From Cokeromyces recurvatus (taxonomy: Eukaryota > Mucoromycota > Mucoromycetes > Mucorales > Mucoraceae), in the NCBI RefSeq assembly GCF_025118155.1, contig NW_026251398.1, positions 620,001-684,000 of the forward strand: a stretch of DNA of 64,000 nt, read 5' to 3'. Position 1 is the first letter of the stretch. Every line of letters begins with the position of its first letter. Below, piece after piece: positions 5,400-61,120 of the stretch. A model generated the notes under the pieces. That model was not told the origin of the DNA. It searched no databases and saw only the letters and a list, made by a program, of their open reading frames with translations. Made by a program: the position numbers and the translations under genes.

Positions 5400-6808
5400 A
5401 TGACATCTGTTGCCCCTACCACTCAATGTGACTTTACTTCTTCTGTTAATAAGGAGTATAAAAAATCTCATATACATAAAAAGAAAACAGGAGCCAAAAG
5501 GATAAGATCCCTAAAAGTTAGACAGCAATTATTAGAGTATTGTAACTTTTCTCCTAACAAGATTCAGCCACGTTCATCAGCGAAGAGAACAGTCATCACT
5601 ACTATTGAAAACAAACAAGAAGCCGATGAAGAAAACACTACAAGTCAATATGTCTTAACAGAAACTCAAGCTAGTAACATCTTGATTGATTTAGCAAATA
5701 GTCAGCAACAGAAGAAGGTAATAAAACTAAACAATATGAGATATGCATGTTCTATGTTTATATATTTGTGTGTGTGTGTGTAGAAATCAAAAAAAAAAAG
5801 ATTAGTTTTTGATAACGGAACGTTGATGTCGTTGTGTTACAAATATTAAGGAGTAAAAAAGATGGGGGAGAAGGGAAGGATCAATAAATTATCTTTGAAA
5901 GTCAGAATAATAACTAATATTTCATGATACAGACAATGACAGTAGTGTCTGAAAAAGACAAACAAAAGGTAAATAGAGCATTATTAAATAAAGAAAAAGA
6001 AAAGACTAATATATGTAAATATGTACTTATAAATATTTATAGGAAAAAGAAGTAATAGAAAAGAAAAAAGGTAAGAAAAAGGGAAAAAAAAAACTATCAA
6101 CTATACTTACATTGCATATAAAAGAGGTCAACTTTAGAAAGCCGGCAAGAATGATTGCAATCCCTAAAAGATCTATTAAAAAGCCCTCTTCTTCAAATAT
6201 TCATGATCCTCTTGGCCTTCTTTTAGCAGCAGCAGAAGCTATTCATAATGAGGATAAACTGACTAAGAATAGTAAAATATAGAAACCATGTATATGTGTT
6301 TCATGTTTATATTAAATAGAGTCTTCGTATAGTAATAACTGTAAACAATCAACAAGAAAGAAAGAGAAGACATAATGATATAGATCCTCTTAAGACTGAT
6401 GATAATAACACAAAGCATCCCGTTAATAAGAAACGTCAAAAAAGAACAGCATCTAACGTCAAAAATAATAGCAAAACAAAGGTAAATATTGCTTTTATCT
6501 ATCTTATTTGCTTGGATATGTTTGTTTATTTGTTTTGTTTTGTTTTTTTTCAAAACATGTATAGCCAGCTAAAAAAGAAAATAACAAGGACGCCACTACA
6601 AAGCAACAAAATCAATCCATAGTATGTTTACTACAGATATATATCGATAGCTATTTACTAATAAACACTATAATATATATAGGAATATAGTCTTAAGATA
6701 AAGCGAAATGCTTTACATGCATATATATCATACATGATATATAATAGTAGTATAGCACAAAATAATACACCAAATATAAACAGTCATAAGGTAAGCATAA
6801 GTACATGA
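5400..6808 (+). CDS. Unrecognised lysine-rich protein, six exons
   Basis: I do not recognise this protein. Phase-consistent joins are 5400-5717, 5933-5968, 6043-6271, 6333-6481, 6565-6621 and 6683-6808, giving about 304 aa. That six exons keep frame with GT-AG borders and no internal stops supports a real gene. The protein is basic, with KKK/GKKKGKKK clusters in the third exon that look like nuclear localisation signals. Better-ordered patches are SLKVRQQLLEYCNFSPNKI near residue 40, ASNILIDLA near residue 95 and NALHAYISYMIY in the last exon. No catalytic motif is visible. The 3' end is uncertain: reading through the last GTAAGC gives a stop at 6808, while splicing onward meets stops in the expected phase. 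A serine/arginine-rich frame at 6876-7154 might be an extra exon but could not be joined in phase. Confidence 0.6.
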
Positions 6809-7752
6809 ATGTATTCATATACTAACCTATTCTATATATATACTTCAAGTAAAACAGTAGTAGCAACATCAATAACCACGAGTTTTATCCTCTCTCCTCC
6901 CCCTCCAACTTTTCCCTACCATTATGACTATAATTCTTCTCCTCTATTATGGTTTTCACTATGACTACCATCATCATCGCAGTAGTACCAGAAGCGAGAG
7001 TCGCAGTAGTAGTAGTAGTAGACATTCTTCCTTCATAAAACGAAAAAAAAACGAAACAAAACAAAAAAACAAAAACAACAACTGGGCCACTCCTTTAGCA
7101 GAAAAGGAAAAAGAACCAACTTTTCTTATAAAAGAAGTATCTACGGTAGAATAATTACAATTATTTAATTGACAAATTTCCTTCAATTTGGAACCGAATC
7201 TTAAATATATTTGTTAGCTGACAGTTTTCCTTTCAACTTTAAATATATTTGTTAATAAATTAAGTTTTCATACTTGTATATACATTGATTCATAATAAAC
7301 AGTGGGTAGAGTAAACAAAAGAAAAAAGGAAAAAAAAAAAAAAAAAAAAAAAAAAAAGAAATTAAAAAGTTTATACTTCCTATACACTTACTTCTAAAGG
7401 TATTATCAAGATAATATGAATGAATATTATGTTCAACTTGAACTTTCAATACTTTTGGCTCGGTAAATGTTAACAAGGGAACACAATGTGTCTATAGTAA
7501 CTATGTATTTATTAATAGGACTCATAGTAAGCGGCAATCTGTACTTTGTTTTGAATAGAACTAAGAATATGAAAAGCCTTGAAGAGAAACAAAGATGAAT
7601 GCAGATATATTACAAAACGCTGCTCTATAGAATTCTTTTTGATAGGGGAATAATGTCTAATATTTAAAAAAAAGTATGCTTAGTTTTATATTGTTACTCT
7701 AGGAATAAATCCATTATGTAGAGGATCGATAATAGCTGTCAAACAGGATTTA

Positions 7753-7935: not shown

Positions 7936-8840
7936 TTACTCTTCATCAGATTCTTCAGCAAGAGTCATGGCAATACGATCCAAATCTCTTTGACCATCTT
8001 GAGTAATCTTACGGCCACTATTAAATAGTTATATACATTAGTTAAAGTAAAATAAAATACTACGGTCAATCTTACCCCTTCTTATCCTTTTCCAAGACAC
8101 CAATCTTTTCCAAAGATTGGAGAACCTTACGGTTGACGGAACCAGAAGCATTGACGTGGTGAGAGGGACGAGAACCACGGTTGACAGTACCACCGTGAAC
8201 CTTGTTCAAAGCACCAACACCAACAGACTTACGGATGTAGATGTGACGAGCAACAGAGGCTATTTAAAAGGGGCATTAATATACTTTATCTATTATACAA
8301 ACAAATGATAATACGTTACCAGCACGAATGTAATACCAGTCAGGGTCATAAGGAGCAAGTTCCTTGAAAGTACCAGTCTTGACAAGGTCAACCCACTTAG
8401 GGACTTCGAGCTTACCAGTACGCTTGAGATAGGCAGCATAGGCCTTGATGAAGGCTATAAATAAATGTGAGTATTAATATACTTGACTTTATACATCAGT
8501 ATTTTTTTTTTAAGAAAAAAAAAGACATGAGCCAAGCCACAATTCCCCTCATTGATGAATTATTCAATTCTTTCTACAACAATTCCAAAATGTGTCTACT
8601 AGTTACTTTGTATTATACTTTTTGTTTTGTATTATCCATGTAAAAAATATGTTTTCTTTCCTTGAAATTCGATACATGTACAAATTTCACATTTAAGATT
8701 TTTTTTTTTTTTTTTTGTAAAAAAAAAAAATGGATGAAAATTATGGCTTTTGACTCATCGTCTTTCTTTTCTTTAAAGTTCTAATATTTTGAAGATATCG
8801 TACCATGAGGGTTAACGTCCTTAACAGTGATACCAGCCAT
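7936..8840 (-). CDS. RPS19: 40S ribosomal protein S19 (eS19)
   Basis: Component of the small ribosomal subunit head, needed for 18S rRNA maturation. Four exons on the minus strand. The first (8804-8840) encodes [12 protein letters not shown] plus one base, and the next continues [19 protein letters not shown]. Then come [51 protein letters not shown] and [19 protein letters not shown]; the protein ends LAEESDEE. Total about 145 aa, the usual eS19 length. Intron 1 (8459-8803) is 345 nt, far longer than the other two (about 60 nt each), and carries a long T/A run. The promoter side (8841 onward) faces a 2.1-kb gene-poor region. Confidence 0.97.
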
Positions 8841-12702: not shown

Positions 12703-12773
12703 TATGTAAGACTTATATTACATAATATGATATTTATTATTGTATATTATTTATTATATACCACTATGTATAT

Positions 12774-12842
12774 GTGCATGTGCATATGCATGTGTACGTG
12801 TACATGTACGTGTACGTATATGTATATGTGTACGTGTACGTG

Positions 12843-12917
<75 letters not shown>

Positions 12918-12955
12918 ATATACGCACGCACACACACACACATACATATACATAT
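12774..12955. repeat. TATATG-type microsatellite with CA tail
   Basis: Directly 3' of the RING gene is about 180 bp of simple sequence. GTGCAT/GTACGT-type units grade into roughly a dozen perfect TATATG hexamers (about 12845-12920) and end in a short CA run (12926-12942). Because the unit is 6 bp and lacks stops in most phases, several frames on both strands stay open here; none is a gene. Confidence 0.9.
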
Positions 12956-26813: not shown

Positions 26814-26873
<60 letters not shown>

Positions 26874-29507
26874 ACGATGTCATTTTACTACTCCATTTGG
26901 AAATAAACAATATAACAATATTAAATACTAACTCTTTTGGCTTATATAGATCGTTTGTTACCTCTCTCCTTTTTTTTCTAGATTATTATTACATCACATT
27001 ATATATTTATATAGTAATAATGATAATTAGGTGTATTATATCTTTATATGTTGACTATGCAATGAAGGACATGAACATGTATAATAGTGAATTGCTACTA
27101 CACACATATTATTGTTCTTTAGTCATTTATCCTTTCAAAGAAGTTTGAATATAAAGCATATATTATACAAATATACATGGATTGATTTAACTGAATTTAA
27201 ATTATATAAAAAAAAGGCTTGTTGCTGCATTAAAAAAAAAAAAGGTACACAAATCTGCTGCTTAAGTATAATACTATTAAGCTAATATTCTATTCTCTAT
27301 TCCCTATTCTATTTAACAAGAAGAAGGCTTAGTTCAGCGTAGATAATAGTGAGTATATGATATTCCTTTTACTTTTATTATAAAGCAATTAGCAACGTAA
27401 ATAAAATCTATAACGACGCCAAGTGTAAGACAACAACAAAAAAAGTTTGTAAACGAATTTTACTCCTTACTTTTGATTAATGTGGGAACAATAAAAAAAA
27501 ATATAGACTCTTACCCTTGGTTCTTGGCCCTTTTTTTTTGTATATTGTCTATTTTCCTTTTCCCCCTGTTACTCTGTCTGTCTGTTACTACTACTGTAAA
27601 TAATATATAAAGACTAACATGGCTGCACTGTTAAATGGCGTATATAGTTATTTAAACACTACAAATTTACACTTGTTGCGCTAATAATAATAATAATAAT
27701 AAAAAGTAAGGAGAGAAATTAACTAAATAAAAGATAACATCTTCATGTGCTTTATCTAGCTTTATTTGGCTTTTTTTTTTTTGACGCCAAAGCACTGTGC
27801 AACACATATGATTTTTGACGTTTATTGTTCTCATTAACCATAAAAACACTATAAAACTATCCCTTGCTCTTCCGTTTCCACCCTCCTCTTTCCTTTTTCT
27901 TTTTTTTATCATTATATTTTTTTATTATTATTATAAAAATTATTATTAAAAAAATGACCTTCTCTTGTAAGTATCTTTATCTTTTATATGTGTTTAAATA
28001 CTTTTTTTTTATTATAAAATAACGTGTATAACTAACAAATATCGTTATTTTTTTTTATATAAACATTCTTTTATCTTCTTGCGTTGGCTTCCTCTCTCTT
28101 TCTGTGTGTATATACAACTATATTCTACGATAATAGCTATTTCTTCTGCTGCTTCTCTCTCTGTTCCCCCCATTGCCCCCAAGGCAGATATGCCTCCTCC
28201 TCTTTTCCTCCCAGCCCGTTTCGGGAATAACGTTTTGGCTGCGTTGGCTACCTCTGTCCCTGTTGGTCAGTTGCCTCCAGGTTCCATGGAGATGGAGATC
28301 GAAGATGATCTCATGGACCTGGTTGATGAGGTAGAAGAACTCGAGGTTCTTCTATCTCAGATTGACCTGAACGATGATCCAATGGAGGGTGTTGTCTTCG
28401 GACACATCTGGTGAAGTTGGGTTGTTTAGGGGTTCAGGGGTAGTCCCCCTAAGGTGATTTGTGTTGGCTTTGGCCTGTTTCTGCTTGCTGGTGCTGGTGC
28501 TGGTGCTGCTTTTGCAGATTCGTTTTCCTCTGTTGATTTCTGTGGGTTTTTATTTTCGCGCTTTTTTTTTTCCGTTTTTCTATAAAAACAAAAAGTTGCC
28601 TCAAATTAAAAATTTGTTTTAAATAATAAAAATAATAAAAAAAAAAATAAAAAAAATAAAAGTATAAAATACTTTTGTAAAAAAAAAAACCTACTCTTCT
28701 CGCATGTCCAAAGAATTAAAATGTATTGAAAATGTGTTGCTTTTGCTTTTTTTTTTATTTTTCTTAAAAAAAAATGACTTTTTCACAGTATAAATTTTAT
28801 GAGATTTTAATATAAATAAACAAAAGATGGATTATATGAAAAAATAAAAATAATAAAGTGTTTGTTAGTTTATAAATAAAGAAGATTTAGTTAGTTGATG
28901 TGTAATGGTGAAAAGGGGAAAGGCAGATTAATCGCTAACATCGTTAGAGGAATCACAATAAAATAAATAAAGTATATAGAATATTACACAAAGAAGAAGT
29001 GGTGTATGGTTTCTTGAGTGTGCATACAATTGAAAGACACAACATGAGACTAGAAACTAGATTTTATCGCCCCTTCTTTTTTTTTTATAGATACTTTCTC
29101 AGTTTACTTTTACAGTAAAATAATTAATTAATGATAAAGACCAAGTTGAAACTCACTCATTAGTGATGGAAGAAGAAAATTGATTCATGAAACTACTGAA
29201 ATTCACTTCTATATTTCTTATTCAAACTTGTTGCAATAGTGATGTTAATGCCAGAATTTAGTGACGACTAAACATCTGTCAAGATTGTAAGTTCAACAAA
29301 GAACATAAAATATTAGAGAAGGGGCTTTAAAGCATGAAATTCTTATGTTAGCTCCTAGTTAGAAAATGCTGCGATAAAAGCTTTAACAAAAATAGATGTG
29401 CGCTATTAAATTGCATAACTGAAGATTAGTTTTCTATTTTGTTTATTCATGAAGGCTCATTCTACAAATTAGCGGAAAAAGCTAGTAACAACAACATCGT
29501 TAAAATG
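26814..29507 (+). repeat. Inverted-repeat copy A (2.7 kb), partner of 58434-61120
   Basis: The segment starts in a 58-nt poly-A tract (26814-26871) followed by ACTACGATGTCATTTTACTA. It ends near CATCGTTAAAATGA at 29507. The reverse complement of 58434-61120 matches it over the full length: the same poly-A boundary, the same upstream 1.1 kb with only scattered differences, the same 3' kilobase, and the same end within CATCATTAAAATGA. The middle (about 28090-28640), covering exon 2 of the small gene and its near 3' UTR, is clearly more diverged than either flank. No transposase lies inside. The ends share only an 8-bp TCATTTTA/TAAAATGA match, so I do not call it a classical TIR element. It may be a multicopy repeat or an inverted segmental duplication. 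Confidence 0.9.
27954..28414 (+). CDS. Small acidic protein ending GHIW (copy A), unknown function
   Basis: Not recognised. Exon 1 is 13 nt (27954-27966, MTFS plus one base) with donor GTAAGT. Exon 2 runs 28137-28414, in phase, giving 96 aa. The protein has a Ser/Ala-rich start, then DMPPPLFLPARFGNNVLAAL, a Pro/Gly linker with PPGSMEMEIEDDLMDL, and an acidic amphipathic stretch DEVEELEVLLSQIDLNDD. It ends GVVFGHIW. There is no signal peptide or membrane segment. The same two-exon layout, the same exon-1 peptide and the same C-terminus occur in the inverted copy at 59538-59996, which argues that this is a real gene. The conserved parts are PPP-x-FLPARFG-x-NVLAA and the C-terminal block. A shared upstream region of more than 1 kb suggests both copies have the same promoter. 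Confidence 0.7.
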
Positions 29508-30122
29508 AATGTTTTTTATTTTTCTTATATAAGGCATACAACATTGACCGAATATTTGATAAAACACGATATCCACAAGAAATACCACAAGCTATTCAAT
29601 CAGGTCAATTTCTAACTTAGACAACAAGCCATAATAATCTACCAACAACAGCAAATGGAGTGACGAAAATTAACAATTGATAGTATATATCTATTGAATT
29701 ATTATGAATCCTTTCCTTAATCTATCAAATATATGGTAATAACTGTATAAAATATAGTAGAAAATTATCAGATCTGATAATTGCATGCGAAGAATATTTT
29801 TAACAGCCCGCCTACTAGAGATGACTATAGCACAACTTAAAGCAAACAATGAAATAGCCTCTTTTATAACAATACAAACTAATCATGTGAATTCAACTAT
29901 GTTAAATCATTGATGTAAACAAAGTCATGTATACTTGAGTTAAACAATCAAATCACACATTCACATATTAAAAATACATGCATAGTCTTTATAAACTGGT
30001 TTACATGGTTTAAGTATTTGCTTTTTTTTTTTATTCATAAATAAAGATAACTTATGACACACTCATTATTTAATTATAAGAGCTACAATAATGGGTAATA
30101 ACAAAATTATATCATATGAATT
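29508..30122. other. Intergenic, with a weak coding-like stretch
   Basis: Between repeat copy A and the stefin-like gene. Around 29533-29620 one plus-strand frame reads DRIFDKTRYPQEIPQAIQ before a stop, more protein-like than its AT-rich surroundings. I recognise no family, and it may be a gene remnant or chance. Nothing else seen. Confidence 0.4.
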
Positions 30123-46117: not shown

Positions 46118-47736
46118 ACACTATTTTCTACAAATTATTCGTGTAGTTTTAAAAATATAAAAATTGATTCAGGCTCAGAAATAAACTTCGTCCATTAAAA
46201 GGAAATAGTTTCGTGCAATTAAAGAAAAATATTTCGTGCAGTATCAGGAGCCTTTCTTTCTCACTTTTATATTCCATTCAGTATGAACTCTTTTATTCAT
46301 GAAGACGGAAAAAGAAACATGTTAGACGACCAAGGAAATGAAGTCTTTACGATCGATATAGAAGTGAATGATGAAACTTATCCGCTTGAAAATGTAACGA
46401 ACTTGAACCAGTACTTCAACGTAAAGCCAGTTGAGAGAATAGAACAAAGAAAAAGAAGAGAAGCTGCCCGAGGAGTTCAATAGTAATAACCAATCATCCG
46501 GAAAGGGTAAGAGAACCTACAGACACTATAAGCCTGAAGATAAAGAGCGATTTTTTCATTATTTACGAGAAAAACATGGGCGTAAGAGAAGCAGCTAGAG
46601 CCCTTAAAATGCCAGAGATCACTGCTCAAAGTTGGTACGAAAAAAGAAAGCCAGAATCCAGAGGAAGTAATTGAAAGAAAAAAGGGTAGTGGTAGATCTG
46701 TGGGAAGACCACCTATTCTTGAGAGAAGAGCATGAACAATTCTTGAAAGAGCTTATTGATGATAAGCCAAGTTTAGTTTTGGAAGAGATGATGGACAATC
46801 TGACAAGCAAGTTTGAGGACTTATCTATTTCAAAAAAAAAAAAACTGCTCTTTACAACTTTGTAACCAAAAAGTGCAGAATTAGTTTGAAGAAAGCACAT
46901 TTCCACTCAGTAGAGCGAAACAGCCCTGAAAAAATTCAGGAGAGACATGATTGGGTAGTAAGGTGGAATGAAACAGACCTTGATTTCACGAGTAACTGCA
47001 TCTTTATTGACGCGGCAGCTTTCCATATCAACATGAAGCGCTCTGTAGTATGGTCAAAAAAAAAAAAGGAAACCATACCGTTGTGGTTGTACCCAAGACA
47101 AGAGCCAAAACAACAGCTATTTTGGGTGCTATCTCTCCTTATGGTGTAGTAAACATCAAAGTAAGAAGACCAAGAGCACCTGTTCATTTGAAGTGGAGAA
47201 AGACAGCAGGTAGTACTCAGACTGCTGGAAATATTAAAGGCGGAACTGTCACTGGGTACTACTTTAATTTCGTTGCAAGTACCCTTGATATTTTGTATCA
47301 GCATAAGCAATTTAAGGACAATTACATTGTTATGGACAATGCTCCTATTCACAAGCATGCTGATATCAGAAAATACAGTGAGCAACGCGGCTACGTCTGT
47401 ATTTATCTTCCAGATTACTCCCCTGAGCTCAATCCAATTGAACAATTTTGGTCAGTATGTAAAAGCAAGCTTAAAGGAGAAGAGCTTTTGCAGGAAGAAA
47501 CATTATCGTCTAGAATTGGGGATGCATGCAACAGAATCCTTTTGAGTGATCTTCAAGGTTTCTGCGGATACTCAGCTGCTAGATTCGAAGACTGTTTGAA
47601 CCGTAAGCCGACGTAGTTTTCTTGTTTTTTTTTCGTGCACTTCATGCAATAGTAAATCATAAATTTTTATTTTTAAACTGCACAAACTTTTTTCCTGAAG
47701 GTGCACGAAGAATTTGTATATTTGCTATACAGTGAA
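46118..47736 (+). mobile_element. IS630/Tc1-mariner-type DNA transposon, inactive
   Basis: About 1.6 kb. Imperfect terminal inverted repeats: the left end has CACTAT, then TACAAATTATTCGTGTAG (near 46131). The right end, read on the minus strand, has CACTGTATAGC, then TACAAATTCTTCGTGCAC. Subterminal copies of TTTCGTGCA lie at about 46209 and 46231 on the left and 47629 on the right, with TTGTGCAG near 47685 on the minus strand; these may be transposase binding sites. The sole gene inside is a broken transposase. I could not fix the target-site duplication; TA would be expected for this superfamily. Exact ends are approximate to a few bases. Confidence 0.78.
46283..47616 (+). pseudogene. Frameshifted DDE transposase of the element at 46118-47736
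   Basis: The first frame starts MNSFIHEDGKRNMLDDQGNE. After frame changes come HYKPEDKERFFHYLREKHG, a helix-turn-helix-like GVREAARALKMPEITAQSWY, and EEHEQFLKELIDDKPSLVLE. The catalytic part reads CIFIDAAAFHINMKRSVVW (first Asp; related proteins usually have FIDE here). The longest intact frame (47050-47616) has PKTRAKTTAILGAISPYGVV, NYIVMDNAPIHKHADIRKYS (second Asp), YSPELNPIEQFWSVCKSKLK (Glu) and ends CLNRKPT. At least five frame breaks exist. Two fall in A-runs (46832-46843 and 47056-47067), where sequencing or replication slippage is plausible; others are true-looking stops. It is therefore called non-functional. Confidence 0.85.
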
Positions 47737-57279: not shown

Positions 57280-58433
57280 TTACGATTATTTATTAAATAA
57301 ATTGACCCATAGGCACTTGGCTTGTAGAATTGCTTAATTGTACGAAATACTTGACAAGTTTTGATTTTAACAAATGTGCATTTTTTTTTTTTTTTTGGTG
57401 GACTGACATTGAAGTGGCTGTCATTTATATAAGTCTTCTTCCCAGTCACACGCTGTAGAAAAAAAAATTTTTTTTTCCTCATTATTATTATAAAATAACA
57501 ATTTTCTGTTCCTTTTCCAATTTTTTTTTTCTTCTTATTATTATTCTTATACAATCTTCAAGCAAAAAGAAAAAAAAAAAAAAAAGTAAGTGTAATTTCT
57601 GGTGAAGGAAGAAGAGAGAATTGTGTTGATGATAGCAAATCCCAAGTTCTATAACACTTCTTTATGGTTGACCGTTTTGGACAACCGGGTGTGATGTTAG
57701 GCTTTATTTTTATAGTCATAGTTACACTGAGCTTTTCTCTTTTTTTTTCTTCTTCTTCATCTTTTGTGTAAATGAATATCTTTGTTTACTAATCATCTTT
57801 ATGTTTATAGATTCTTTGTCACTTGCTACTTTATATTTTTTTTATGTTAAAAAAACTTAATAAATTTTTGATTTTCATTAAATTCTTCACTGTTGCTGTT
57901 ATTGTTTTATTTTATTTTATTTTATATATATATATATATATATATATCGTGAGTTTATGATTTTATCCTTCTAGTTCATAAAGTGAAGGAAATCAAAAAT
58001 CCTACTCAGGCAAAGACTAGAAAGATATTAAGGGAGGGGAGCAAATAAAGAGGCTTGAGGATAGTTATAACAGTCACATAAAGTGTTATTGACCTAGAAA
58101 GTAGTGTTATATTATGTTGGATTGTTGTCATCATTGCGAGACCAGCAATCGAGTCCTTGAAGGAGTGAGCAAAAGATGTGTCATAGATGAGCCAAAGTAA
58201 AACAGTGTTGATGGAAAAACTTTTTTCTATTTCTTTTTTTGAAATAAATAAATAAAATAAAATAAAAATAAAGTAGGATTATTAATTGAAAAAGTAGACA
58301 AGTACAAACGATAACTAACTCATTTGGTGACAGCAGCAAATAGTATAAAATTTTATAAAGAGCGTTGCAGGACACTGGGGACATGAACTAGGAATTTACA
58401 GGAGCAAATTAACTTGATAAAGAAAAAAAAGGT
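57280..58433. other. Intergenic, with a 35-codon membrane-like frame
   Basis: Between the ABCD gene and repeat copy B. A frame at 57664-57771 begins MVDRFGQPGVMLGFIFIVIV and continues hydrophobic and Ser-rich to a stop: a possible one-TM peptide, but without homology I do not call it a gene. AT dinucleotide array near 57924-57947 and TTTTA repeats before it. Nothing else recognised. Confidence 0.5.
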
Positions 58434-61076
58434 CATTTTAATGATGTTGTTGTTGCTAGCGTTTTCCGCTAATTTGTAGAATGAGCCTTCATGAATAAAT
58501 AAAATAGAAAACTAGTCTTCAGTTGTGTAATTTAATAGCGCACATCTATTTTTGTTAAAGCTTTTATCGCAACATTTTCTAACTAGGAACTAACATAAAA
58601 ATTTCATGCTTTAAAGCCCCTTCTCTAATATTTTATGTTCTTTGTTGAACTTACAATCTTGACAGATGTTTAGTCGTCACTAAATTCTGGCATTAACATC
58701 ACTATTGCAACAAGTTTGAATAAGAAATATAGAAGTGAATTTCAGTAGTTTCATGAATCAATTTTCTTCTTCCATCACTAATGAGTGAGTTTCAACTTGG
58801 TCTTTATCATTAATTAATTATTTTACTGTAAAAGTAAACTGAGAAAGTATCTATAAAAAAAAAAGAAGGGGTGATAAAATCTAGTTTCTAGTTTCATGTT
58901 GTGTCTTTCAATTGTATACATATTCAAGAAACTATACACCACTTCTTCTTTGTGTAATATTCTATATACTTTATTTATTTTAGTGTGATTCCTCTAACGA
59001 TGTTAGTGATTAATCTGCCTTTCCCCTTTTCACCATTACACATCAACTAACTAAATCTTCTTTATTTATAAACTAACAAACACTTTATTATTTTTATTTT
59101 TTCCTATAAACCATCTTTTGTTTATTTATATTAAAATCTCATAAAATTTATATTGTAAAAAAGTCATTTTTTTTTTTAAGAAAAATAAAAAAAAAGCAAA
59201 AGCAGCACATTTTCAATACATTTTAATTCTTTGGACATGCAAGAAGAGTAGGTTTTTTTTTTACAAAAGTATTTTATACTTTTATTTTATAAATAAATAA
59301 ATATAAATATATATTTTTTTTTTTAAATTTAAAGCAACTTTTTGTTTTTAAAGAGAAGAAAAAAGAAAAAAAAAAGCGCGAAAAAAAAGACAGCCACCAA
59401 ACCAAACGCAAGACGAAGCTACAAAAATAGTAGTAGTAGTAGTAGTAGCAGTAGCAGCGACAGCAGCAGCAAATGTCCAACACCAGACCAGTCATCCATC
59501 GAAGAGGACTACCTCTGAACCCCTAGACAATCCAACTTCACCAGATGTGTCCGAAGACAACATCCTCCATTGAATCATCGTTCAGATCAATCTGAGATAG
59601 AAGAACTCCAAGTTCTTCTACCTCATCCACCAGATCCATGGGATCATCCTCCATCTCCATGGAATCTGGTGGCGACTGATCAACAGGGCCAGAGGTAGCC
59701 ACGGCAGCAAGAACATTCTTCCCGAATCGGGCTGGCAGAAAACGGGGGGGAGGCATGGCAGCTCTATCAGCTGCCTCACGAGCAGCAGAGGAACGTGGTG
59801 CTGAGAAAACACCTATAGTACAGCATACACAAAGAGAAAGGAGTTTAATAGAGCCAACACAAGAAGATGGAAGAAGGAAGAATGTTTATATATAGAAAAT
59901 AAAAAATAATATTCGTTAGTTATACATGTTATTTTATCATAAAAAAAAGTATTTAAACACACATAAAAGATAAAGATACTTACAAGAGAAGGTCATTTTT
60001 TTAATAATAATTTTTATAATAATAATAAAAAAAATATAATGATAAAAAAAAGAAAAAGGAAAGAGGAGGGTGGAAACGGAAGAGCAAGGGATAGTTTTAT
60101 AGTGTTTTTATGGTTAATGAGAACAATAAACGTCAAAAATCATATGTGTTGCACAGTGCTTTGGCGTCAAAAAAAAAAAAGCCAAATAAAGCTAGATAAA
60201 GCACATGAAGATGTTATCTTTTATTTAGTTAATTTCTCTCCTTACTTTTTATTATTATTATTATTATTAGCGCAACAAGTGTAAATTTGTAGTGTTTAAA
60301 TAACTATATACGCCATTTAACAGTGCAGCCATGTTAGTCTTTATATATTATTTACAGTAGTAGTAACAGACAGACAGAGTAACAGGGGGAAAAGGAAAAT
60401 AGACAATATACAAAAAAAAAGGGCCAAGAACCAAGGGTAAGAGTCTATATTTTTTTTTATTGTTCCCACATTAATCAAAAGTAAGGAGTAAAATTCGTTT
60501 ACAAACTTTTTTTGTTGTTGTCTTACACTTGGCGTCGTTATAGATTTTATTTACGTTGCTAATTGCTTTATAATAAAAGTAAAAGGAATATCATATACTC
60601 ACTATTATCTACGCTGAACTAAGCCTTCTTCTTGTTAAATAGAATAGGGAATAGAGAATAGAATATTAGCTTAATAGTATTATACTTAAGCAGCAGATTT
60701 GTGTACCTTTTTTTTTTTAATGCAGCAACAAGCCTTTTTTTTATATAATTTAAATTCAGTTAAATCATTCCATGTATATTTGTATAATATATGCTTTATA
60801 TTCAAACTTCTTTGAAAGGATAAATGACTAAAGAACAATAATATGTGTGTAGTAGCAATTCACTATTATACATGTTCATGTCCTTCATTGCATAGTCAAC
60901 ATATAAAGATATAATACACCTAATTATCATTATTACTATATAAATATATAATGTGATGTAATAATAATCTAGAAAAAAAAGGAGAGAGGTAACAAACGAT
61001 CTATATAAGCCAAAAGAGTTAGTATTTAATATTGTTATATTGTTTATTTCCAAATGGAGTAGTAAAATGACATCGT

Positions 61077-61120
<44 letters not shown>
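58434..61120 (-). repeat. Inverted-repeat copy B (2.7 kb), partner of 26814-29507
   Basis: Read on the minus strand it begins with a 42-nt poly-A tract (61079-61120) followed by the same ACTACGATGTCATTTTACTA as copy A, and ends at CATCATTAAAATGA. The flanks outside 59300-59860 match copy A closely: the promoter-side 1.1 kb differs at only a few positions and run lengths, the 3' kilobase at a few percent by eye. The core carrying exon 2 is much more different and includes a TAG trinucleotide run (59427-59449) absent from copy A. The opposite orientation and 29-kb spacing could support homologous inversion of 29508-58433. Confidence 0.9.
59538..59996 (-). CDS. Small acidic protein ending GHIW (copy B), unknown function
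   Basis: Paralogue of the gene at 27954-28414. Exon 1 is 59984-59996 (same 13 nt as copy A) and exon 2 is 59538-59812, in phase, 95 aa. After MTFS the sequence differs (VFSAPRSSAAREAADRAA). Then MPPPRFLPARFGKNVLAAVA aligns with copy A. A Pro-rich linker with PPDSMEMEDDPMDLVDEVEE follows, then LGVLLSQIDLNDDSMEDVVF and GHIW. The region around exon 2 is diverged by many substitutions and small indels, yet the frame is intact and the acidic C-terminal block is preserved, so purifying selection on that block is likely. No signal peptide, membrane segment or known domain. Confidence 0.7.

Follow-up and report, generated by a model that had tools for sequence, protein, structure and literature searches.

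Probable concerted evolution with an island of divergence in a small multi-copy gene family of Cokeromyces recurvatus

The window analysed here comprises 64,000 nt (C4:620001-684000) of the genome of Cokeromyces recurvatus, a homothallic member of the Mucorales whose 28-Mb genome is assembled in 64 contigs. It contains a repeat unit present in two inverted copies, A and B, for which BLAST returns an end-to-end alignment of 26830-29524 with 61120-58416 (91.5% overall). The first-pass annotation had proposed such an inverted pair matching over its full length, and this holds, with revised limits for copy A, where the homology begins at 26830, inside an A tract, and continues to 29524. The features of the two copies are as follows, with C and D denoting two further copies on the same contig and E an older relative on contig C25.

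26830-29524, plus strand: copy A of the repeat unit, core type 1 (BLAST, four-way alignment).
26814-26871, plus strand: A tract of 58 nt in which the A/B homology ends, absent from C and D (sequence, four-way alignment).
26872-27990, plus strand: homogenised upstream flank of A, comprising the presumed promoter region, 5' leader, exon 1 and splice donor (divergence profile).
27185-27270, plus strand: non-coding block 88% identical to E, a candidate upstream regulatory element (genome DNA searches).
27954-27966, plus strand: exon 1 of gene A, 13 nt with the ATG (splice form as in public models P0001 and P0003).
27967-28136, plus strand: intron of gene A, GTAAGT...TAG, inside which the near-identity ends (alignment, divergence profile).
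28137-28414, plus strand: exon 2 of gene A, coding to TGA, type-1 core (protein search, reading of the frame).
28137-28189, plus strand: apparently hypervariable start of exon 2 of gene A, about 18 codons (dN/dS, divergence by region).
28327-28359, plus strand: hairpin within the coding part of exon 2, with 15 pairs in A and retained in B, C and E (13 pairs) (folding, alignment).
28415-28690, plus strand: diverged 3' UTR part of the core of A (divergence by region).
28691-29524, plus strand: largely homogenised downstream flank of A (divergence by region, genome search).
58416-61120, minus strand: copy B of the repeat unit, core type 2, inverted relative to A (BLAST, four-way alignment).
61079-61120, minus strand: 42-nt tract, T on the plus strand, at the end of copy B (four-way alignment, homopolymer count).
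59997-61078, minus strand: homogenised upstream flank of B (four-way alignment, genome search).
59984-59996, minus strand: exon 1 of gene B (search, splice reading).
59538-59812, minus strand: exon 2 of gene B, coding to TGA, type-2 core (protein search, frame reading).
58416-59252, minus strand: largely homogenised downstream flank of B (substitution counts, genome search).

The poly-A/T tracts of 42-58 nt that the first-pass annotation had placed at the ends of both copies are present as described. As a special kind of repeat end they were rejected, given the eight A/T homopolymers of at least 30 nt in the window and the lack of a tract in C and D. Elsewhere in the window, an open frame with a DDE_3 transposase domain lies between the two copies (47011-47616), and 12765-12919 forms a long palindrome of TATG/GTAC-like units with a stem of up to 63, including G-U pairs; no tRNA was found in the 64 kb.

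Copies A-D each contain a two-exon gene, consisting of a 13-nt exon 1 with the ATG, an intron starting GTAAGT and an exon 2 running to TGA, and coding lengths are multiples of three in all five readings (A-E). Two public models of 95 residues share this splice form, P0001 being identical to our reading of C and P0003 to that of B and D, the proteins of which do not differ. The public model of A, P0002, skips 84 nt inside exon 2 (28346-28429, placed by hand). Because B, C and E retain this 84-nt stretch as conserved open sequence, the intron in P0002 is likely an annotation error; an alternative intron inside exon 2 of A may also be used. The C-terminal residues of P0002 match, by eye, approximately 29533-29620, outside the repeat. 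The gene product is a small acidic protein of about 95 residues without a known domain, and a Pfam search yielded no family up to an E value of 1 for either the type-1 or the type-2 protein. An AlphaFold2 model of the type-2 protein, built from a two-sequence alignment and of poor quality (mean pLDDT 54, pTM 0.20), has three helices, of which only that of residues 62-77 reaches a pLDDT of about 70; the remainder looks disordered or undetermined in this model.

Searching the genome at the DNA level recovered, in addition to A and B, copy C at C4:510962-513577 (plus strand, in pieces), copy D at C4:702256-704641 (minus strand) and, at about 289.5-291.2 kb of C25, the old relative E; the order on C4 is C(+), A(+), B(-), D(-). 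There were at least 40 matches, and those outside the family lay, judged by query position, in A/T-rich simple stretches. A protein search of the genome with exon 2 gave five candidates, all of which match, namely A, B, C, D and E. Searches with the flanks alone (at least 10 matches upstream, at least 7 downstream) returned the same loci plus a few simple stretches, and none of the matches listed for either flank joined it to an unrelated core. Where the first-pass annotation had suggested a search for further copies combining the same flanks with different cores, two more copies exist, but the cores are of only two types. In E, exon 2 is open and no ATG occupies the position of exon 1 (C25:284001-294000, about 6650-7200), so that E either uses another start or is a decaying gene; it is absent from the public proteins matched in the protein search.

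Outside C. recurvatus, protein searches of the exact-word kind returned no relatives among the candidates listed, all three hits (3/5 candidates in one search, 3/7987 among the candidates listed in another) belonging to this species, and scans of viral and prokaryote contigs produced 120 and 51 pattern matches, respectively, with no relatives. These results are weak evidence that the family is absent from other Mucorales, because a search of this kind depends on exact words, small genes are often unannotated and E itself was missed.

Comparison of 30 kb around C, 104 kb containing A, B and D, and 20 kb around E gave no larger segmental duplication among the matches listed, with the copies themselves accounting for the main matches. 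A repeat of 563 columns at 79% also links C4:500744-501265 with C4:712031-712588, which lie 10 kb from C and 7 kb from D, respectively. Its two members point in the same direction, unlike C and D, and the one at 712 kb sits between inverted repeats of about 165 bp (711684-711846 and 712803-712971); it therefore looks like a separate mobile element. The repeat unit itself does not look like a discrete mobile element, the ends of the unit differing among C, D and the A/B pair, and retroposition was rejected, since the intron and the upstream region were copied too.

The divergence between A and B is distributed very unevenly. Counting ungapped columns only, with region boundaries set after viewing the divergence profile, we found 2/1110 substitutions upstream (26880-27990), 155/675 in the core (27991-28690) and, fairly uniformly spread, 30/817 downstream (28691-29507); with these post hoc boundaries, the core differs from the upstream region at p = 9e-68 and from the downstream region at p = 9e-31 (Fisher test). 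The near-identical flanks and diverged core claimed in the first-pass annotation are therefore real, with two corrections. The core does cover exon 2 and the near 3' UTR, but it starts a few tens of bases into the intron and includes the rest of it, and only the upstream flank is nearly identical, the downstream flank being less clean at 96% alike.

With all four C4 copies aligned and columns gapped in any copy omitted, the cores fall into two types, A/C and B/D, and the upstream flank ignores this split. Pairwise identity is 96.6% over 2.26 kb for A-C and 98.5% over 2.39 kb for B-D. In the core (27991-28690), 120 informative sites group AC against BD, none AB against CD and two AD against BC, whereas only 4/1000 upstream columns (26990-27990) are polymorphic at all, two as singletons of A and two of D. 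Partner relations are mosaic along the alignment, which is what conversion predicts: the stretch 28691-29150 has five AC|BD sites, one AB|CD and two AD|BC, and the far downstream region (29151-29330) has six AB|CD sites and no AC|BD. The switch of partners between core and far downstream region gives a Fisher p of 2e-10, with the regions chosen post hoc and with 28691-29150, singletons and multi-state sites left out.

Long runs of identity cross the boundary between types. The tract 27182-27988 (about 800 bp) is free of substitutions in A-B, A-C and A-D, and in B-C the substitution-free tract extends over 26990-28037, despite the different cores. The cores of B and D have no substitution in 28086-28480. 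A and C differ by about 3-6% in the intron, in exon 2 from the residues MPPP onwards and in the 3' UTR, by 26% in a short patch before MPPP, and in only 2/1000 columns upstream. When sites were permuted, 0/5000 shuffles reached the observed sum of squared run lengths for A-B, A-C, A-D and B-D, with p values of 0.002 for B-C and 0.004 for C-D; by the longest run, A-C was not significant (p 0.053).

E provides a yardstick for the age of these regions. From A, it differs upstream by 33% (26990-27230), 45% (27290-27600), 38% (27600-27840) and 47% (27840-27970), and by 15% in the short block 27180-27290. The upstream alignment to E is secure only in part, BLAST recovering 86 bp at 88%, 395 columns at 67% and 94 columns at 83%, the last spanning exon 1 and the first part of the intron. 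Columns that are not homologous may therefore be counted in the higher figures, and one third is the safe lower reading for the long stretch. In the five corresponding upstream parts, A and B differ by 0.4, 0, 0, 0 and 0.9%, with 0/310 substitutions in 27290-27600. The core presents a different picture: in exon 2 from MPPP, E differs from A and B by 14-17% (17% for A-E) and A from B by 12%; in the 3' UTR (28460-28680), A-E divergence is 37% and A-B divergence 28%; and dS is 0.61 for A-B, 0.53 for A-E and 0.57 for B-E (our own Nei-Gojobori script with Jukes-Cantor correction, as for all dN/dS values here, dS resting on 50-69 sites). On these sequence comparisons, the core types are about as old as the split from E, and the flank has been made uniform recently. 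Flank divergence thus lies far below core divergence in old duplicates (2/1110 against a core dS of 0.6 for A-B), and the upstream flank, which over most of its length has diverged from E by a third or more, shows no intrinsic conservation.

Measured by dN/dS, each core type is under purifying selection. For A-B, dN/dS is 0.28 over the whole exon and 0.20 from MPPP on, where 15/50 synonymous and 12/166 non-synonymous sites have changed (Fisher p 9e-5), so the gene appears mainly conserved (dN/dS 0.2-0.3), and the diversifying selection that the first-pass annotation had suggested for the core finds no support over the gene as a whole. The roughly 18 codons behind the splice site, by contrast, look hypervariable. 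A-B nucleotide divergence reaches 63% in 28133-28189, and A-C differs at 11/50 columns of this stretch against 29/599 other core columns (p = 8e-5, a post hoc comparison with one hand-placed gap). Its dN/dS, computed on about 15 synonymous sites, is 1.32 for A-C, 1.06 for A-E and 1.11 for C-E, but the values for B-C (0.53) and B-E (0.30) are lower and that for A-B is undefined; with so few synonymous sites, we do not claim positive selection. In the last part of exon 2, dN/dS relative to E rises to 0.92 (B-E) as a consequence of low synonymous change there.

The hairpin in exon 2 has, in A, a z score of -4.7 (0/200 shuffles reach its value); longer pieces of A and B have z scores of -3.2 and -2.9. 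From the hairpin to the stop codon, synonymous changes in A-E number 2 in 18.8 sites against 17 in 31.8 before the hairpin (p 0.003), with 1 against 17 for B-E (p 0.0006) and 3 against 18 for C-E (p 0.007); the deficit is not significant for A-B (p 0.12), C-B (p 0.22) or A-C (p 1). A run of 31 bases across the stop codon is invariant in A, B, C and E. Together, the hairpin, the low synonymous change relative to E and the invariant run hint at an RNA or DNA element overlapping the code. The core also differs in composition: exon 2 has 51% G+C and the near 3' UTR 49%, whereas the upstream region has 26% and the window as a whole 30%. Third-position G+C is 0.43-0.51 for A-D and 0.38 for E; seven long stop-to-stop frames from the window have 0.19-0.29. 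Islands of about 50% G+C lie at 28076-28430 and 59376-59890, and the only other stretch of 150 nt in the window with at least 47% G+C is at 8066-8290. Because the islands include 3' UTR, codon choice alone is an insufficient explanation.

We consider it likely that the observed copies, core types, age contrast and partner switch result from ectopic gene conversion that stops in the first intron, homogenising the flanks and sparing the coding core. Of the first-pass proposals, this is the one that the substitution-free tracts, the comparison with E and the two core types support. Under this model, an ancient split in a family of five paralogues would have given rise to type 1 (A, C), type 2 (B, D) and E. 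Conversion among the four C4 loci, most active in the upstream half, would then have repeatedly copied the 5' flank, a stretch starting some 1 kb upstream and running past exon 1 to include the splice donor, and the 3' flank only in part; with tracts ending in the intron and at the 3' UTR, the coding core would escape and two old types persist. The agent would be homologous-recombination repair starting at or near the promoter, which would fit the sharp edge in the intron. Two factors may together spare the core, mismatch rejection acting on diverged DNA and purifying selection for both protein types. The persistence of differences between the A and C cores, which are about 95% alike, suggests that mismatch rejection alone is insufficient. 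The result would be a set of four genes that share one promoter and encode two kinds of protein. As to direction, flanks may have been overwritten, or old cores copied into young flanks.

Explanations that dispense with conversion have to meet the same contrast between flank and core. If the whole 2.7-kb unit had been duplicated recently and its core had then diversified rapidly under selection, fast-changing codons would be expected, and some 18 of them do change rapidly between A and C, with dN/dS near 1 in three comparisons; but selection on a protein does not diverge synonymous sites, intron and 3' UTR, all of which have diverged here (dS 0.61, the remaining intron, 28% in the 3' UTR), and with dN/dS at 0.2-0.3 and A-B synonymous divergence equal to that from E, old cores beside a uniform flank make this history scarcely credible. 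The opposite view, that strong purifying selection on a non-coding element or RNA keeps the flank identical, could draw on upstream blocks retained in E (88% over 86 bp). It must, however, accommodate a flank that for the most part differs from E by a third or more, the lack of any Rfam family at gathering score in the 64-kb window, and zero substitutions over 800 bp in four copies, A/T-rich runs included, which is beyond expectation; plain constraint is accordingly most improbable. Near-perfect identity over about 800 bp at four places is also what would be expected had the flanks been collapsed, or overwritten by one consensus, during assembly or polishing. Such an artefact is unlikely, as the four copies have different neighbours on one contig, the 276,459 bases examined (part of the contig, overlaps counted) contain no N, the homogenised span ends differently in C, D and the A/B pair, A and D have singletons of their own upstream, the downstream flank is partly homogenised with other partners, and polishing would hardly turn 12-28% divergence into zero.

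A different kind of alternative accepts exchange but gives it a programme. In budding yeast, MAT, HML and HMR have identical flanks around alternative cores on one chromosome, the cores being unrelated and two of the copies silent. The likeness lies in identical flanks around alternative cores on one chromosome, and a cassette of this type, whose constant flanks serve as homology for programmed replacement of the core at an expressed locus, would match the constant upstream region, exon 1 and splice donor, the two alternative cores, the four copies with inverted arrangement on one contig and the B/D cores without substitutions in 28086-28480. Here, however, only two types of core occur, which are homologous to each other and subject mainly to purifying selection; an open gene and the upstream region are present in each of the four copies, with no silent store evident; and the 3-6% difference between the A and C cores means that exchange of type-1 cores must be rare. 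None of 29 HMG-box matches in the genome lies on C4, and the two on C25, the contig of E, are at 165.7 and 214.2 kb, at least 75 kb from E. The idiomorph or antigen cassette that the first-pass annotation had in mind is thus not borne out by these ordinary homologues, and we regard programmed replacement as improbable; identity with the Mucoralean sex locus was likewise rejected, C4 having no HMG box. Finally, recurrent conversion could preserve promoter, start codon and splice donor as an exchangeable module of a gene set, with two matched protein types (e.g., recognition or poison-antidote partners) held apart and A and B flipping the 29 kb between them, a speculative scheme to which we assign little probability.

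Ectopic conversion that spares the core belongs to a known class, in which concerted evolution leaves an island of divergence, and the present case is real and well supported. Divergence peaks between duplicates under gene conversion are described, in the parts of the reports drawn on here, for exon 5 of the human red and green opsins (PMC3924837) and for the GOT1 paralogues of the copepod Tigriopus (PMC3728101). The likeness lies in low flanking or intronic divergence through conversion and a sharp coding peak, which those sections explain by selection keeping the difference (PMC3924837, PMC3728101). Unlike these pairs, the family described here has four dispersed copies of two types (PMC3924837, PMC3728101), and its peak comprises a whole short gene with 3' UTR, mostly under purifying selection and without a known functional site. 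The flip/flop inverted repeats of Saccharomyces, 4.2 kb long, 24 kb apart and associated with Centroid sporulation genes, are likewise homogenised few-kb inverted repeats with small genes, compared with 2.7 kb and 29 kb here; the account, as far as it is used here, proposes conversion as the mechanism and notes that crossovers would invert the segment between the repeats (PMC9731477). In that account, the repeats are homogenised with their genes included and inversion is shown across strains (PMC9731477), whereas in C. recurvatus the coding core is left unhomogenised, copies C and D add to the pair, and inversion is only a prediction. That prediction, derived from the flip/flop case (PMC9731477), concerns the unique segment of about 29 kb between A and B, which is enclosed by inverted copies with about 800 substitution-free columns and which the pair would occasionally invert.

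All comparisons here are between paralogues within one C. recurvatus assembly. By titles and the starts of abstracts, the literature on Cokeromyces genomes, gene conversion in Mucorales and homogenised promoters of fungal paralogues yielded no earlier report, and, as far as these searches show, the gene family is new to the literature and has more copies than the cited pairs. It represents an unusually clean multi-copy case, from an order of early-diverging fungi, in which upstream regions are homogenised and coding exons spared. That the homogenised region ends so sharply at exon 1 raises the question of what stops conversion, mismatch rejection or selection, and the inverted A/B pair predicts a 29-kb inversion polymorphism.
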